The notes beneath the pieces are model-generated. The model did no database searches, was not told the origin of the DNA, and was given only the letters and a program-made list of their open reading frames with translations. A DNA stretch of 59,817 nucleotides, taken from a virus. The stretch is taken from positions 1 to 59,817 of IMG/VR virus record IMGVR_UViG_3300012920_000042; one strand, 5' to 3'. Numbering within the stretch: the stretch's first letter is position 1; every line of letters starts with the position of its first letter. The position numbers and the translations under genes were made by a program. This document shows positions 22,147 to 29,763 of the stretch, one piece after another.

Positions 22147-23031
22147 TTACAACTCTATAATTTCATCGTCTGGTATTTCTGGCTCTTCTGCTTGTAATTG
22201 TCCTGCGCCTTTTACATCTTTAGGCCATACCATTTTCTCAAATGGATCTTGCTCACCTGCTTGTACTCTGTCCCACCAATGTGAATGTTGTCCTATTCTA
22301 TCAAGGAACCAAGCAATTTTATATGCACTACGCACTCTGGCTTGTTGAGCATCTGGGTGCGAAAAGTCTGCAGGGTCATCTGGATTACCTTCCATGTACT
22401 TTCTGTTTTGGAAAGTTTCATCATTGTTGTTGCCTGTTAAGTCTGCTCTGTCGTGTAAAAATTGAATATCTATTCTTTCAAAAATATCTAGCATGTATGC
22501 AATATGACTTAGCCAAGCATCGTTTTGTGCATTCAAACTTAAATGGTCCATAAGTCTAAACCAATCCATAGGAAGTATAGGCAGTATTGCATAAGGGTGT
22601 CCATTGTGATTATCTTTTGGTGCAAATAATTTGAACTGACCATTTTTACTTTCAATGACATCGTCCCAACCTTCTGTTTCCATTAGTGCATCATCGTTCC
22701 AAAAGAATATCCAAGAACCAGTTGCCGAAGAGGCTAATGTGTTTACATAGATGTTTAGTTTTTCATATCCCAATGGCTCAAAGATATTTGCTCTACATTC
22801 TACGTTGTTTTCTCTCATCATAGGAGCAATATGTTCTTCTATGTAAGGTCTTACTTCTTCATCATCGTCATCAAGTCCTAAAAGTATTTCAAGTCTACTT
22901 GGATCACTTGCTGTAGTAATTAAACTCTCTATACTTTTCTTTAGTACTTCTGTTCTACCTCTTGTTGGTAATAAAATAGATATAATTGTTTTGTCTATTT
23001 TACTTTCTATTGTTTTTACTTCTTCTGACAT
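22147..23031 (-). CDS. Family 2-like glycosyltransferase
   Basis: 294 aa. It opens with IISILLPTRGRTEVLKKSIE, the GT2 start, then LLGLDDDDEE and SWIFFWNDDALMETEGW (DxD-like metal site, NDD). It is acidic toward the C-terminus. It is probably cytoplasmic, acting with the upstream glycosyltransferase; the two genes overlap at TAATG. Confidence 0.7.
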   Translation of the reverse strand: MSEEVKTIESKIDKTIISILLPTRGRTEVLKKSIESLITTASDPSRLEILLGLDDDDEEVRPYIEEHIAPMMRENNVECRANIFEPLGYEKLNIYVNTLASSATGSWIFFWNDDALMETEGWDDVIESKNGQFKLFAPKDNHNGHPYAILPILPMDWFRLMDHLSLNAQNDAWLSHIAYMLDIFERIDIQFLHDRADLTGNNNDETFQNRKYMEGNPDDPADFSHPDAQQARVRSAYKIAWFLDRIGQHSHWWDRVQAGEQDPFEKMVWPKDVKGAGQLQAEEPEIPDDEIIEL

Positions 23032-23927
23032 TAGTATGCTTCTCCAGTTAATAGTTTTCTAATGTTGCCTCTGAAGGTATAATGTCCAACATGGTTAAGT
23101 GCTGTACGAGGATCTAACCAAACTTCGCCACCCATTTCTTGCCAACGCCTACAGAATGTGTAATCCTCTGACAAGTAACGTCTGCTTTCTGGGTCAATCA
23201 TTGTGTCAAACAATGCGTACATGTGTTTCTCAAATTTTTGGTCAACATTAATATCATTAGCATACTTTAAGTCTTGATGTGCATCAAACATTTGCTGTAT
23301 AGTTTCTTTTTTGATACACATAAAACCTGTGCCAGCATCTTTTAGTTTAATTAAATTATCTGCAATCTGTACCTGTGGTGTTCTATTGCCTTCCTCATCT
23401 TTTAAGAAGTCAAAGTTTACAACATAGTTTGAACTATGTCCTTCAATTGTATGTGCTGTTTCTTCTGGATTTGCTCTAGCGGCATTAATAATGCTATCCC
23501 AATTTACTGCCTTTTTAGGATATGCACCAACTGTAATAGGCTTATCATATGCAACCATTCGTAGTAAATCTTCTGGTTCAAACTCAATGTCAGCATCAAT
23601 AAAGAACAAGTGTGTTGCATCTGGATTTTCCATAAAGAAACTTACAAGTGTATTTCTGCCTCTTGTAATTAAACTTTCATTTGCTAGTGTGCTAATAGTA
23701 TAAGGAATATCATACTTGTTACACATGATTGCAGTTCTCATCATGCTTCTAAAATAAGGCTCGCCTAGTTGTCCACCATAACAAGGTGTTGCAATAAAGA
23801 TATGTTTCTTTCTAAGTAATCCAACAGGAATCTCAATCTTTTGATCAAGTAACCTATGCATTATTTCATCTGATGCTTGTTGAGGTTTTTTATTTGTTTG
23901 AGATTTTGCTTTATTTTTCTTTGCCAT
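23031..23927 (-). CDS. GT-A glycosyltransferase
   Basis: 298 aa. After a basic, low-complexity N-terminus (KKNKAKSQTNKKPQQ) there is HIFIATPCYGG, then THLFFIDADIEFEPEDLLRM with the DxD-type site (IDADIE), then VGAYPKK and a C-terminal HVGHYTFRG. This plan is frequent in marine phage glycosyltransferases. It is first in the operon with the GT2-like and SGNH genes. An AGGAC Shine-Dalgarno sequence is present; no clear promoter lies in 23928-24004, only a weak ATTAAATA. Confidence 0.7.
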   Translation of the reverse strand: MAKKNKAKSQTNKKPQQASDEIMHRLLDQKIEIPVGLLRKKHIFIATPCYGGQLGEPYFRSMMRTAIMCNKYDIPYTISTLANESLITRGRNTLVSFFMENPDATHLFFIDADIEFEPEDLLRMVAYDKPITVGAYPKKAVNWDSIINAARANPEETAHTIEGHSSNYVVNFDFLKDEEGNRTPQVQIADNLIKLKDAGTGFMCIKKETIQQMFDAHQDLKYANDINVDQKFEKHMYALFDTMIDPESRRYLSEDYTFCRRWQEMGGEVWLDPRTALNHVGHYTFRGNIRKLLTGEAY

Positions 23928-24915: not shown

Positions 24916-25292
24916 TTCCAATACATATCATACAAATCATACTCTAAGTTATATGCCTCAAACTCTCTTTTAGGGCATGTTACTTCCTCTTTTCTAATAT
25001 GTTGTTTTGCATGTACTAGTTCGTGTGCAAGTGTTACAATAACTTCTTTGTAATCATATGGAGTGTAGTGTTGATTAGGTATTTGAAATCCTTTTGCTAC
25101 TTCTATAACAATGTGTTCATCGTCACCATAGCAACCACCTGCAGAATTATCCTCTAATGATTTAGATATCCTAACTTCTATATCAATTTCTCTTTTTAAT
25201 CTACCTTTAAAAAAATGTTCTAAGCAGTCATGGCAAAATTGTTCTACTTTTCTTTTGTTTCTAATTTGCCCTGAAAGATAGATGTGTATCAT
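24912..25292 (-). CDS. HExxH zinc metallopeptidase-like protein
   Basis: 126 aa. The zinc motif LAHELVHAKQH (His90, Glu91, His94) sits in the C-terminal third, as in SprT-like and other minigluzincin folds. An acidic region DDEHIVIEVAKG precedes it. The ATG at 25292 overlaps the stop of the upstream PP-loop gene (TAATG), so the two are coupled; an in-frame TTG two codons earlier is less likely. The target is unknown. Confidence 0.7.
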   Translation of the reverse strand: MIHIYLSGQIRNKRKVEQFCHDCLEHFFKGRLKREIDIEVRISKSLEDNSAGGCYGDDEHIVIEVAKGFQIPNQHYTPYDYKEVIVTLAHELVHAKQHIRKEEVTCPKREFEAYNLEYDLYDMYWN

Positions 25293-26389
25293 TACCAATC
25301 AAAGTTATAAGTATTGCATACTTTTGGTTGACATTCTTGTACACTATTTAGAAGTGCTGTTTCTATTTCTTCATCATCACCGTGAAAAGTTAAGTTGTCT
25401 ACTTTTCTTGATTCTGCTCTTCTATCATAAGGATTGAATAGTTTAGGATTATACCAAGCAGTTTCTTTGGCAATATTCAATAAAGGTATTCTATACCTCT
25501 CATCAAATTCATCAAAGTTTCCTGTATGTGATGCAAGATGAAACTTTAAGTTTTCAAAGCCTGTACGTTTTGCAATAGGAAACAAATATTCAAAATCTTC
25601 AAAAGACTTATAGTAATTTTCTTTGTACCTGTGAGGGTTACGTTTTTGCCCACTTGATACTTGTAAACATTCTCCAAAAGACTCTATTGCATATTTGTTC
25701 TGATAATAACCTGCATACAATATTTCAGGTGTAAGCAAAAATGGATCTTTTATAATGTGCAATCCATGTTGTTGCTCTAAGTTAATAAATGGTGCATTGT
25801 AAATAAAATAAAATGCTGATGTAGAAAATCCTAATGCAACTTTCCTGTCGCCGTCAAAATAAAGTTTACGTTCTAAATAAACTGCACTTTGGTCTTGACT
25901 TACATAAACATATGGTGCCTCACCACCTAGCAAAAGTATTCTATCATTGAATTTAGAATTTTTAATTGCCGCTAATTGTAAAGATATTTGAGGACTGAGT
26001 GTGGCATATTTTCTTGTGTACTCTACTAGATTATTTTCAAAATGATCTCTTGCATCAATGTCCTCATAGTGTAATTCTAAATCTATCTTATCAGCAAACT
26101 GTTGTGCTGTAACTACATCGTCTGTGTTTAGAACTACTCCGTCCCATATAAATCTAAAGCAAACAGCATTCACATCTTTGCAAAATCTTTTTGCCAAGTT
26201 TGCTGAAAACTGGCTGTCAAGTCCTCCGCTCAAACATACAGTGACTCCTTCGAGACTGCCTAACTGTTCTTCAAATAAATCCATTAGGTTAGGTTGGCTA
26301 GGTTTAGTTAAGTAAACATCAGTAGAGCCCGACTCAAAGTCTAGTTCTATTGTTTTTGTGTTGCCGATTGATACAGTTGTATTTTCCAT
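25292..26389 (-). CDS. Asparagine-synthase-like ATP-pyrophosphatase (PP-loop) protein
   Basis: 365 aa. The PP-loop SGGLDS is at residues 54-59, followed by VNAVCFRFIW, DIDARDH and a long alpha/beta region with LLLGGEAPY. It lacks the glutaminase half of asparagine synthase, so it would adenylate an acid group and use ammonia or another donor. The C-terminus carries two cysteines (ECQPKVCNTY). It is followed by the coupled metallopeptidase gene. The substrate is unknown. Confidence 0.65.
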   Translation of the reverse strand: MENTTVSIGNTKTIELDFESGSTDVYLTKPSQPNLMDLFEEQLGSLEGVTVCLSGGLDSQFSANLAKRFCKDVNAVCFRFIWDGVVLNTDDVVTAQQFADKIDLELHYEDIDARDHFENNLVEYTRKYATLSPQISLQLAAIKNSKFNDRILLLGGEAPYVYVSQDQSAVYLERKLYFDGDRKVALGFSTSAFYFIYNAPFINLEQQHGLHIIKDPFLLTPEILYAGYYQNKYAIESFGECLQVSSGQKRNPHRYKENYYKSFEDFEYLFPIAKRTGFENLKFHLASHTGNFDEFDERYRIPLLNIAKETAWYNPKLFNPYDRRAESRKVDNLTFHGDDEEIETALLNSVQECQPKVCNTYNFDW

Positions 26390-29425: not shown

Positions 29426-29447
29426 AAAAGGGACCGAAGTCCCTTTT
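29426..29447 (-). terminator. Terminator with cUUCGg tetraloop
   Basis: A 9-bp stem AAAAGGGAC/GTCCCTTTT closing a TTCG loop on the minus strand, 10 nt after the stop of the 51-aa gene. The T run follows within the stem; on the plus strand it could also act for readthrough. Confidence 0.8.
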
Positions 29448-29456
29448 CTAGTATCC

Positions 29457-29612
29457 TTAAGGATAGTAAGGATTGTTTGTGATATAGTCAGGTAGTTCGG
29501 TTTTTTCATAGCGAACACCTCTGTAAACATATTCCACAGTTTTGCCTTGATCTTTCTTAAGTTGTTGTTTTACAGCACGTCGAATGAGTGCTTTCTCTTG
29601 ATACTTAGTCAT
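29457..29612 (-). CDS. 51-aa protein under glutamine riboswitches (DUF4278-like end)
   Basis: 51 aa. It opens MTKYQEKALIRRAVKQQLKK, a basic helix, then VEYVYRGVRYEKTELP, which resembles the YRG-x-x-Y motif of DUF4278-type short proteins. In cyanobacteria, riboswitches of this class stand before short ORFs and before the glutamine-synthetase inactivating factor gene; the small basic character here would fit a regulator of nitrogen metabolism, but that is inference. The start has AAGGAG 5 nt away. The gene ends at a strong terminator, so it is a one-gene unit. Confidence 0.7.
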   Translation of the reverse strand: MTKYQEKALIRRAVKQQLKKDQGKTVEYVYRGVRYEKTELPDYITNNPYYP

Positions 29613-29633
29613 ATCATCTCCTTTTACAAAGAT

Positions 29634-29692
29634 GCGTTCCTTCGGATTAATTTCCTACTTCCGTTCACTGCTACATTTAGAGTGAATGAACG
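29634..29692 (-). promoter_or_regulatory. Glutamine riboswitch aptamer (second, gene-proximal)
   Basis: A three-way junction closed by CGTTC/GAACG. Its P2 hairpin is TTCACT/AGTGAA, its P3 hairpin GGA/TCC, and its junction strands are ACGGAAGTAG and CGAAGGAACGC. These strands are the conserved core of the glnA-type glutamine riboswitch. It ends about 22 nt before the ATG of the 51-aa gene. Confidence 0.8.
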
Positions 29693-29698
29693 AGTTCG

Positions 29699-29748
29699 GC
29701 GTTCCTTCGTCACTTGTTTGACTACTTCCGTCCAATACTGGATGAACG
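29699..29748 (-). promoter_or_regulatory. Glutamine riboswitch aptamer (first, promoter-proximal)
   Basis: Same core as the downstream copy (CGTTC/GAACG, ACGGAAGTAG, CGAAGGAACGC), but with different hairpins: P2 TCCA/TGGA and P3 GTCA/TGAC. The stems vary while pairing is kept, which supports the structure. It begins within 3 nt of the predicted transcription start. Confidence 0.8.
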
Positions 29749-29755
29749 TATATAT

Positions 29756-29763
29756 TATTTATC
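29756..29763 (-). promoter_or_regulatory. Late promoter for the riboswitch transcript
   Basis: GATAAATA on the minus strand, predicted +1 at about 29750, directly in front of the first aptamer. No gene is visible in 29764-29822. Confidence 0.65.

Follow-up and report, generated by a model that had tools for sequence, protein, structure and literature searches.

Tandem glutamine riboswitch aptamers precede a small basic protein gene in a marine virus of bacteria and in SAR86 chromosomes

Introduction

Does a marine virus of bacteria sense the glutamine of its host late in infection? The question is raised by a locus in a 59,817-nucleotide stretch of viral DNA (IMG/VR record IMGVR_UViG_3300012920_000042, positions 1 to 59,817; this whole stretch is referred to as the window in the rest of the paper). 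An initial annotation made from the sequence alone proposed that two tandem glnA-type glutamine aptamers, known from cyanobacteria and marine metagenomes, lie at the very 5′ end of a late phage transcript whose only gene encodes a 51-aa basic protein, and that this gene could link nitrogen status to lysis or to the control of glutamine synthetase (GS). To determine whether this is the case, we examined the aptamers, the promoter, the leader and the protein, and searched for related loci in viral and cellular genomes.

Results

Two glutamine aptamers lie between a late-type promoter element and a small ORF

A covariance-model search against Rfam 15 (cmscan) confirmed that both three-way junctions are present on the minus strand. 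Both units match RF01739 (glutamine riboswitch, glnA RNA) over the full 53-position model, with 56.9 bits (E = 6.3e-10) at 29694-29631 and 52.0 bits (E = 1.4e-8) at 29750-29696, against a gathering score of 35. No other copy occurs in the 59.8-kb record. The P2 and P3 pairings named in the initial annotation are those found in the Rfam alignment, and the interval 29612-29763 that it proposed encloses the promoter, the aptamers and a Shine-Dalgarno (SD) hairpin which it had not noted. The locus contains the following features:

29756..29763, minus strand: T4-late-type promoter element GATAAATA; the T of its TAAATA is 13 nt before P1 of the first aptamer
29696..29750, minus strand: glutamine riboswitch aptamer, 5′ (first) unit
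29631..29694, minus strand: glutamine riboswitch aptamer, 3′ (second) unit
29615..29634, minus strand: proposed expression platform, a hairpin CAUCUUU-GUAAAA-GGAGAUG that pairs the SD; its first C (29634) is the nucleotide directly after P1 of the second aptamer
29457..29612, minus strand: ORF for a 51-aa basic protein MTKYQEKALIRRAVKQQLKKDQGKTVEYVYRGVRYEKTELPDYITNNPYYP (pI 9.6), preceded by the SD AAAGGAG
29426..29447, minus strand: terminator-like hairpin AAAAGGGAC-UUCG-GUCCCUUUU, closed by cUUCGg, after the ORF

The 43-nt stretch around the last hairpin folds at −16.3 kcal/mol (z = −2.8), although a terminator scan did not list it, apparently because the scan counts the A/T pairs into the stem. 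The next gene, which codes for a PAAR-motif protein (about 29407-29117, minus strand), has its own GATAAATA at 29420-29413, so the cassette looks monocistronic, as the initial annotation supposed. The start codon of this PAAR gene lies 5 nt after its GATAAATA, so its mRNA would have almost no leader. Elsewhere on the minus strand, the window encodes a 1028-aa phage protein (42077-45163) containing a strong Cu/Zn superoxide dismutase domain (PF00080, 8e-43, residues 286-416), as well as a HUP-domain (Asn synthase/NAD synthase-like) protein (25292-26389) and a phrog_1574 protein (23031-23927) whose best relative is annotated dpG-synthase-like, the latter two being possible DNA base modification genes.

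The cassette is widespread in marine viral contigs

In a survey of viral contigs (loci are designated L followed by a number), 99 of 123 loci have two aptamers less than 120 nt apart, a fraction that is biased upward because the search pattern asked for GTTCA soon after the first unit. Of 109 loci with a readable ORF, 50 carry the family of the window protein and 25 have a YRG motif, and all ORFs are short (32-95 aa). Thirty members of the family align with invariant M1, T2, P41, Y43, N47, P48 and Y50, and their pI is 9.6-10.6. Between related members the third codon position changes most (684/613/1470 over non-independent pairs; 0/0/5 for L007 versus L012), so the ORF is coding. L081, the closest genomic relative of the window among the loci, has the cassette at the same place near nrdA/nrdB (74.7% over 3.4 kb). 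In contrast, in L122/L123 the same cassette sits between genes that look like tail sheath and tail tube (the tail tube was confirmed, whereas the sheath is named by its position and length), so it occurs as a unit in different places. DNA and protein searches of cultured phages with the cassette and several of the small proteins gave nothing meaningful.

The T4-type element is also found at the related loci. In 116 of 119 viral loci TAAATA lies within 30 nt of the first aptamer, compared to 1.8% of random positions in the same contigs. Distances peak at 12-13 nt, with a second group at 27-30 nt that has a small hairpin in between. Such a hairpin (for example UGUAACAGCAAUGUUACAU), found in L016, L033, L079, L099 and about 20 more viral loci, is probably located at the very 5′ end of the RNA. 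If transcription begins as expected for T4 late promoters, which carry a TATAAATA-like element close to the transcript start, the inferred start would fall within about two bases of the aptamer. Interestingly, cassettes with a 33-37-aa MTMWTRYCREQAQ-type ORF (L006, L009, L025, L027, L031 and similar loci) have TTGACT about 17 nt before TATAAATA, so a σ70 promoter may overlap the late element.

A covarying SD hairpin begins at the conserved C after P1

Directly after the GAACG of the last aptamer, the sequence runs C-A-U-C-U...GGAGAUG..AUG. Across 39 distinct leaders the two arms of this hairpin change together (CAUCU/AGAUG, CAAUCU/AGAUUG, CACC/GGUG, CACUC/GAGUG, CAUUUUCC/GGAGAAUG). The mean Watson-Crick stem is 4.6 pairs, compared to 2.8±0.17 when arms are exchanged (0 of 3000 shuffles reached the observed value). 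The shuffles do not remove relatedness, but the version with one leader per distinct arm (ten), which gave 4.0 compared to 2.49±0.28 (0 of 5000), limits it. In the window, the hairpin is present in both the MFE and the centroid fold of the 158-nt leader, although the fold of the free leader is not exceptional (z = −1.44) and its MFE does not show the P1 helices. Pairing between P1 strands of neighbouring units (GAACG...CGUUC, −2.1 to −3.5 kcal/mol) is possible, but it follows automatically from the conserved P1 sequence and is thus only an idea.

The first base of the SD hairpin is C in 123 of 123 last units. In the solved glutamine riboswitch, we read this position, matched by eye as the one directly after P1, as corresponding to C60, the linchpin nucleotide that pairs with G23 only when glutamine is bound (PMC11477058). 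Both units of the window have the ACGGAAGUAG strand of J2/3 and the C after GAACG. The SD hairpin and the bound aptamer would therefore compete for one base, and loss of the C-G pair weakens each of six tested hairpins by 2.6 kcal/mol (from −5.0 to −2.4 in the window). This predicts a translational ON switch, which is the direction shown for gifB and for a Prochlorococcus gene (PMC6316151). However, a plain secondary-structure model with both aptamers formed and the C blocked still leaves the SD mostly paired, so static base pairing alone does not explain switching, and the proposed switch needs tertiary or kinetic effects.

Cellular relatives are found in SAR86 genomes

A pattern-based scan of 84,980 species genomes with the family alignment found four relatives, three in SAR86 genomes and one in a gammaproteobacterial MAG that a later family search places in the same family. 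One is on a 312-kb single-cell contig between bacterial genes. The SAR86 copies have tandem aptamers, the same SD hairpin and a terminator-like repeat, but no TAAATA next to the aptamer, and the flanking genes are chromosomal and shared among four genomes. In 35 genomes of this family, 5 have the tandem aptamers and all 5 have the protein behind them (one cut by the contig end), while none of the other 30 has either above the cut-off. Weak sub-threshold RF01739 hits (26.9 bits, 78 nt) recur in several SAR86 genomes (L141-L144 and L148, in genomes G028, G029, G030, G033 and G002) and could be a divergent aptamer or chance. SAR86 cassettes form one clade (100/99) among viral ones in an unrooted tree and reach 90-95% DNA identity with viral cassettes over 150-182 nt, which argues for exchange between these phages and SAR86, in an unknown direction. 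This does not prove the host, as no SAR86 genome held a close phage tail-sheath gene, and tRNA similarity did not single out the cassette-bearing SAR86.

In wider samples RF01739 is rare, with 3 of 369 gammaproteobacterial genomes over the cut-off, counting the SAR86 genome G001 itself, and 1 of 398 from the phylum, which is G001. In one of those genomes (0.9 Mb), tandem aptamers precede glnA, and a second tandem, with the SD hairpin CAUCUUUUUAAAAGGAGAUG, precedes a 43-aa ORF. In another, single aptamers precede gltB and gltD (gltB named from its sequence, gltD from Pfam). The class is therefore not confined to cyanobacteria. At one of the loci in these genomes (L157 and L160 in genome G069; L155 and L158 in genome G325), L160, the first aptamer of the tandem has U instead of the linchpin C after GAACG, although the second unit keeps the C.

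Evidence for a nitrogen-related function is indirect

The window protein has no Pfam match at E≤10, and Pfam and PDB searches with the protein or its profile gave nothing useful. AlphaFold predicts a helix at residues 3-32 followed by a low-confidence tail. Only the stretch VYRGVRYEK resembles the YRG motif of DUF4278 (PF14105), which is the N-terminus of the cyanobacterial GS inhibitor IF17, and this match is short and weak (phrog_5049, E = 0.0083; hhalign probability 24%); most family members lack YRG. However, sister phage cassettes (L014, L015, L019, L039, L066, L093) have tandem aptamers before small proteins with three YRG repeats (MATYYRG... in L014, L019 and L066), and two of these products, from L015 and L039, hit DUF4278 above its cut-off (3e-9 and 1e-7). 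In cyanobacteria, glutamine riboswitches sit mainly before DUF4278 genes (PMC6316151). GlnE (PF03710), the GS-adenylylating enzyme, was found in none of the 35 SAR86 genomes, while the E. coli, Caulobacter and Corynebacterium controls matched and GS genes are present in several SAR86 genomes.

Discussion

Our analysis supports the initial annotation as regards the tandem type-1 aptamers, the late promoter at the first aptamer and the single small basic gene, which belongs to a real, conserved protein family. In contrast, the cyanobacterial link is not supported for this phage, and the tie to lysis or GS control remains inference. We propose that the locus is a monocistronic late-phage cassette in which a T4-type late promoter is inferred to start the RNA within a few bases of the two aptamers. 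Without glutamine, the SD would be paired in a hairpin whose first base is the C directly 3′ of P1 of the second aptamer. With glutamine, that C would be taken by the G23-C60 linchpin pair, thereby removing the closing pair of the hairpin and opening translation. The second aptamer in series would sharpen the response, and the 51-aa protein would be made only when glutamine is plentiful late in infection, suggesting that the virus probably reads the nitrogen state of its host. We give this riboswitch mechanism, in which glutamine binding and the direction of the switch are inferred, a probability of roughly 0.7. By analogy with the glutamine-switched IF17/DUF4278 proteins, action on host nitrogen assimilation, with GS as the first candidate, is the most economical function for the product, but this part of the model remains tentative. 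As the cassette is shared with SAR86 chromosomes, the host, although unproven, is probably SAR86 or a close streamlined gammaproteobacterium, and is more likely SAR86-like than cyanobacterial.

A comparably tentative alternative is that the switch is real but the protein has nothing to do with nitrogen, being instead a late structural, nucleic-acid-binding or lysis-timing protein, with glutamine used only as a gauge of remaining biosynthetic capacity. The late-type promoters, the lack of a Pfam hit for the window protein and the presence of small basic proteins of several unrelated families behind the same riboswitch in viral contigs are in line with this view, and a lysis-timing role was proposed for the riboswitch of phage Melnitz (PMC9004378). 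Yet a purely virion or lysis protein would not explain why some SAR86 keep the same gene in syntenic position on the chromosome, without the phage-type promoter next to it, nor does this view account for the DUF4278 hits in sister cassettes. It is unlikely that the aptamers act as an OFF switch that allows the protein to be made under nitrogen starvation. Repression by glutamine would be expected where such aptamers precede glnA, gltB and gltD in gammaproteobacteria, but the leaders of those biosynthetic genes differ, the SD hairpin described here shares the linchpin C with the aptamer so that binding should weaken it, and the tested riboswitches with small-protein targets are ON switches (PMC6316151).

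Infection of cyanobacteria, with a classical GS inactivating factor (IF7/IF17 type) acquired from that host, also seems unlikely. Glutamine riboswitches and DUF4278/IF17 are typical of cyanobacteria (PMC6316151), cyanophages are reported to have such RNAs (PMC9964418), and the window protein carries a YRG motif. However, cellular relatives of the family were found only in SAR86 in the pattern-based scan, the window nrdB and the L123 tail tube are closest to jumbo phages of proteobacteria rather than to cyanophages, and there was no match in cultured cyanophages. Least likely is that the aptamers are a passive 5′ structure stabilising the transcript that no longer responds to glutamine. Although they lie at the extreme 5′ end and about 24 related loci have an extra hairpin before the aptamer, the ligand-binding strands are near-invariant in about 120 diverse leaders (even if the search pattern selected for some of them), and a covarying SD hairpin is joined to them through the linchpin C.

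A bolder and less probable extension of our model is that phages of SAR86 share a chromosomal glutamine-sensing cassette with their hosts, drive it from a late promoter and use it to control host nitrogen assimilation through a small basic GS-controlling protein. This protein would be the first GS inhibitor of the IF kind outside cyanobacteria, in bacteria that seem to lack the GlnE adenylylation system. The locus represents a widespread, uniform case of a phage gene probably switched by a host metabolite, and offers a candidate handle on which phages infect the abundant SAR86 group and on how bacteria without GlnE control GS.

Glutamine riboswitches in phages, namely Melnitz, Mosig and a Prochlorococcus phage (PMC9004378) and cyanophages (PMC9964418), as well as tandem glnA RNAs (PMC2864571), were already known, while a search for papers on DUF4278 and phage found none. 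As far as reviews and the literature examined show, the cassette with its late promoter, the protein family, the SD hairpin sharing the linchpin C, and the copies in SAR86 and other gammaproteobacteria appear to be new. Compared to glnA RNAs (RF01739), both units have all consensus strands and the linchpin C, but they lie in a phage at a late-type promoter before an undescribed small-protein family, and cellular copies occur in gammaproteobacteria although a review calls the class restricted to cyanobacteria (PMC6316151). The riboswitch of Melnitz and of Pelagibacter phage Mosig belongs to a marine myophage of streamlined heterotrophs, as the one described here probably does, but was described as lying with ssrA (tmRNA), whereas here two aptamers are followed by a proposed platform and a protein gene. 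As for gifB/IF17 and the DUF4278 proteins of cyanobacteria (PMC6316151), a small protein gene with a YRG motif lies directly behind a glutamine aptamer, and the ON switch shown there is expected here; however, the window protein is not a DUF4278 hit, and has a different N-terminal helix and a conserved C-terminus LPxYITDNPFYP. Finally, the downstream-peptide RNA, or type 2 glutamine riboswitch (RF01704), also lies upstream of short ORFs of 17-100 aa (PMC2864571), but the window matches RF01739, not RF01704.
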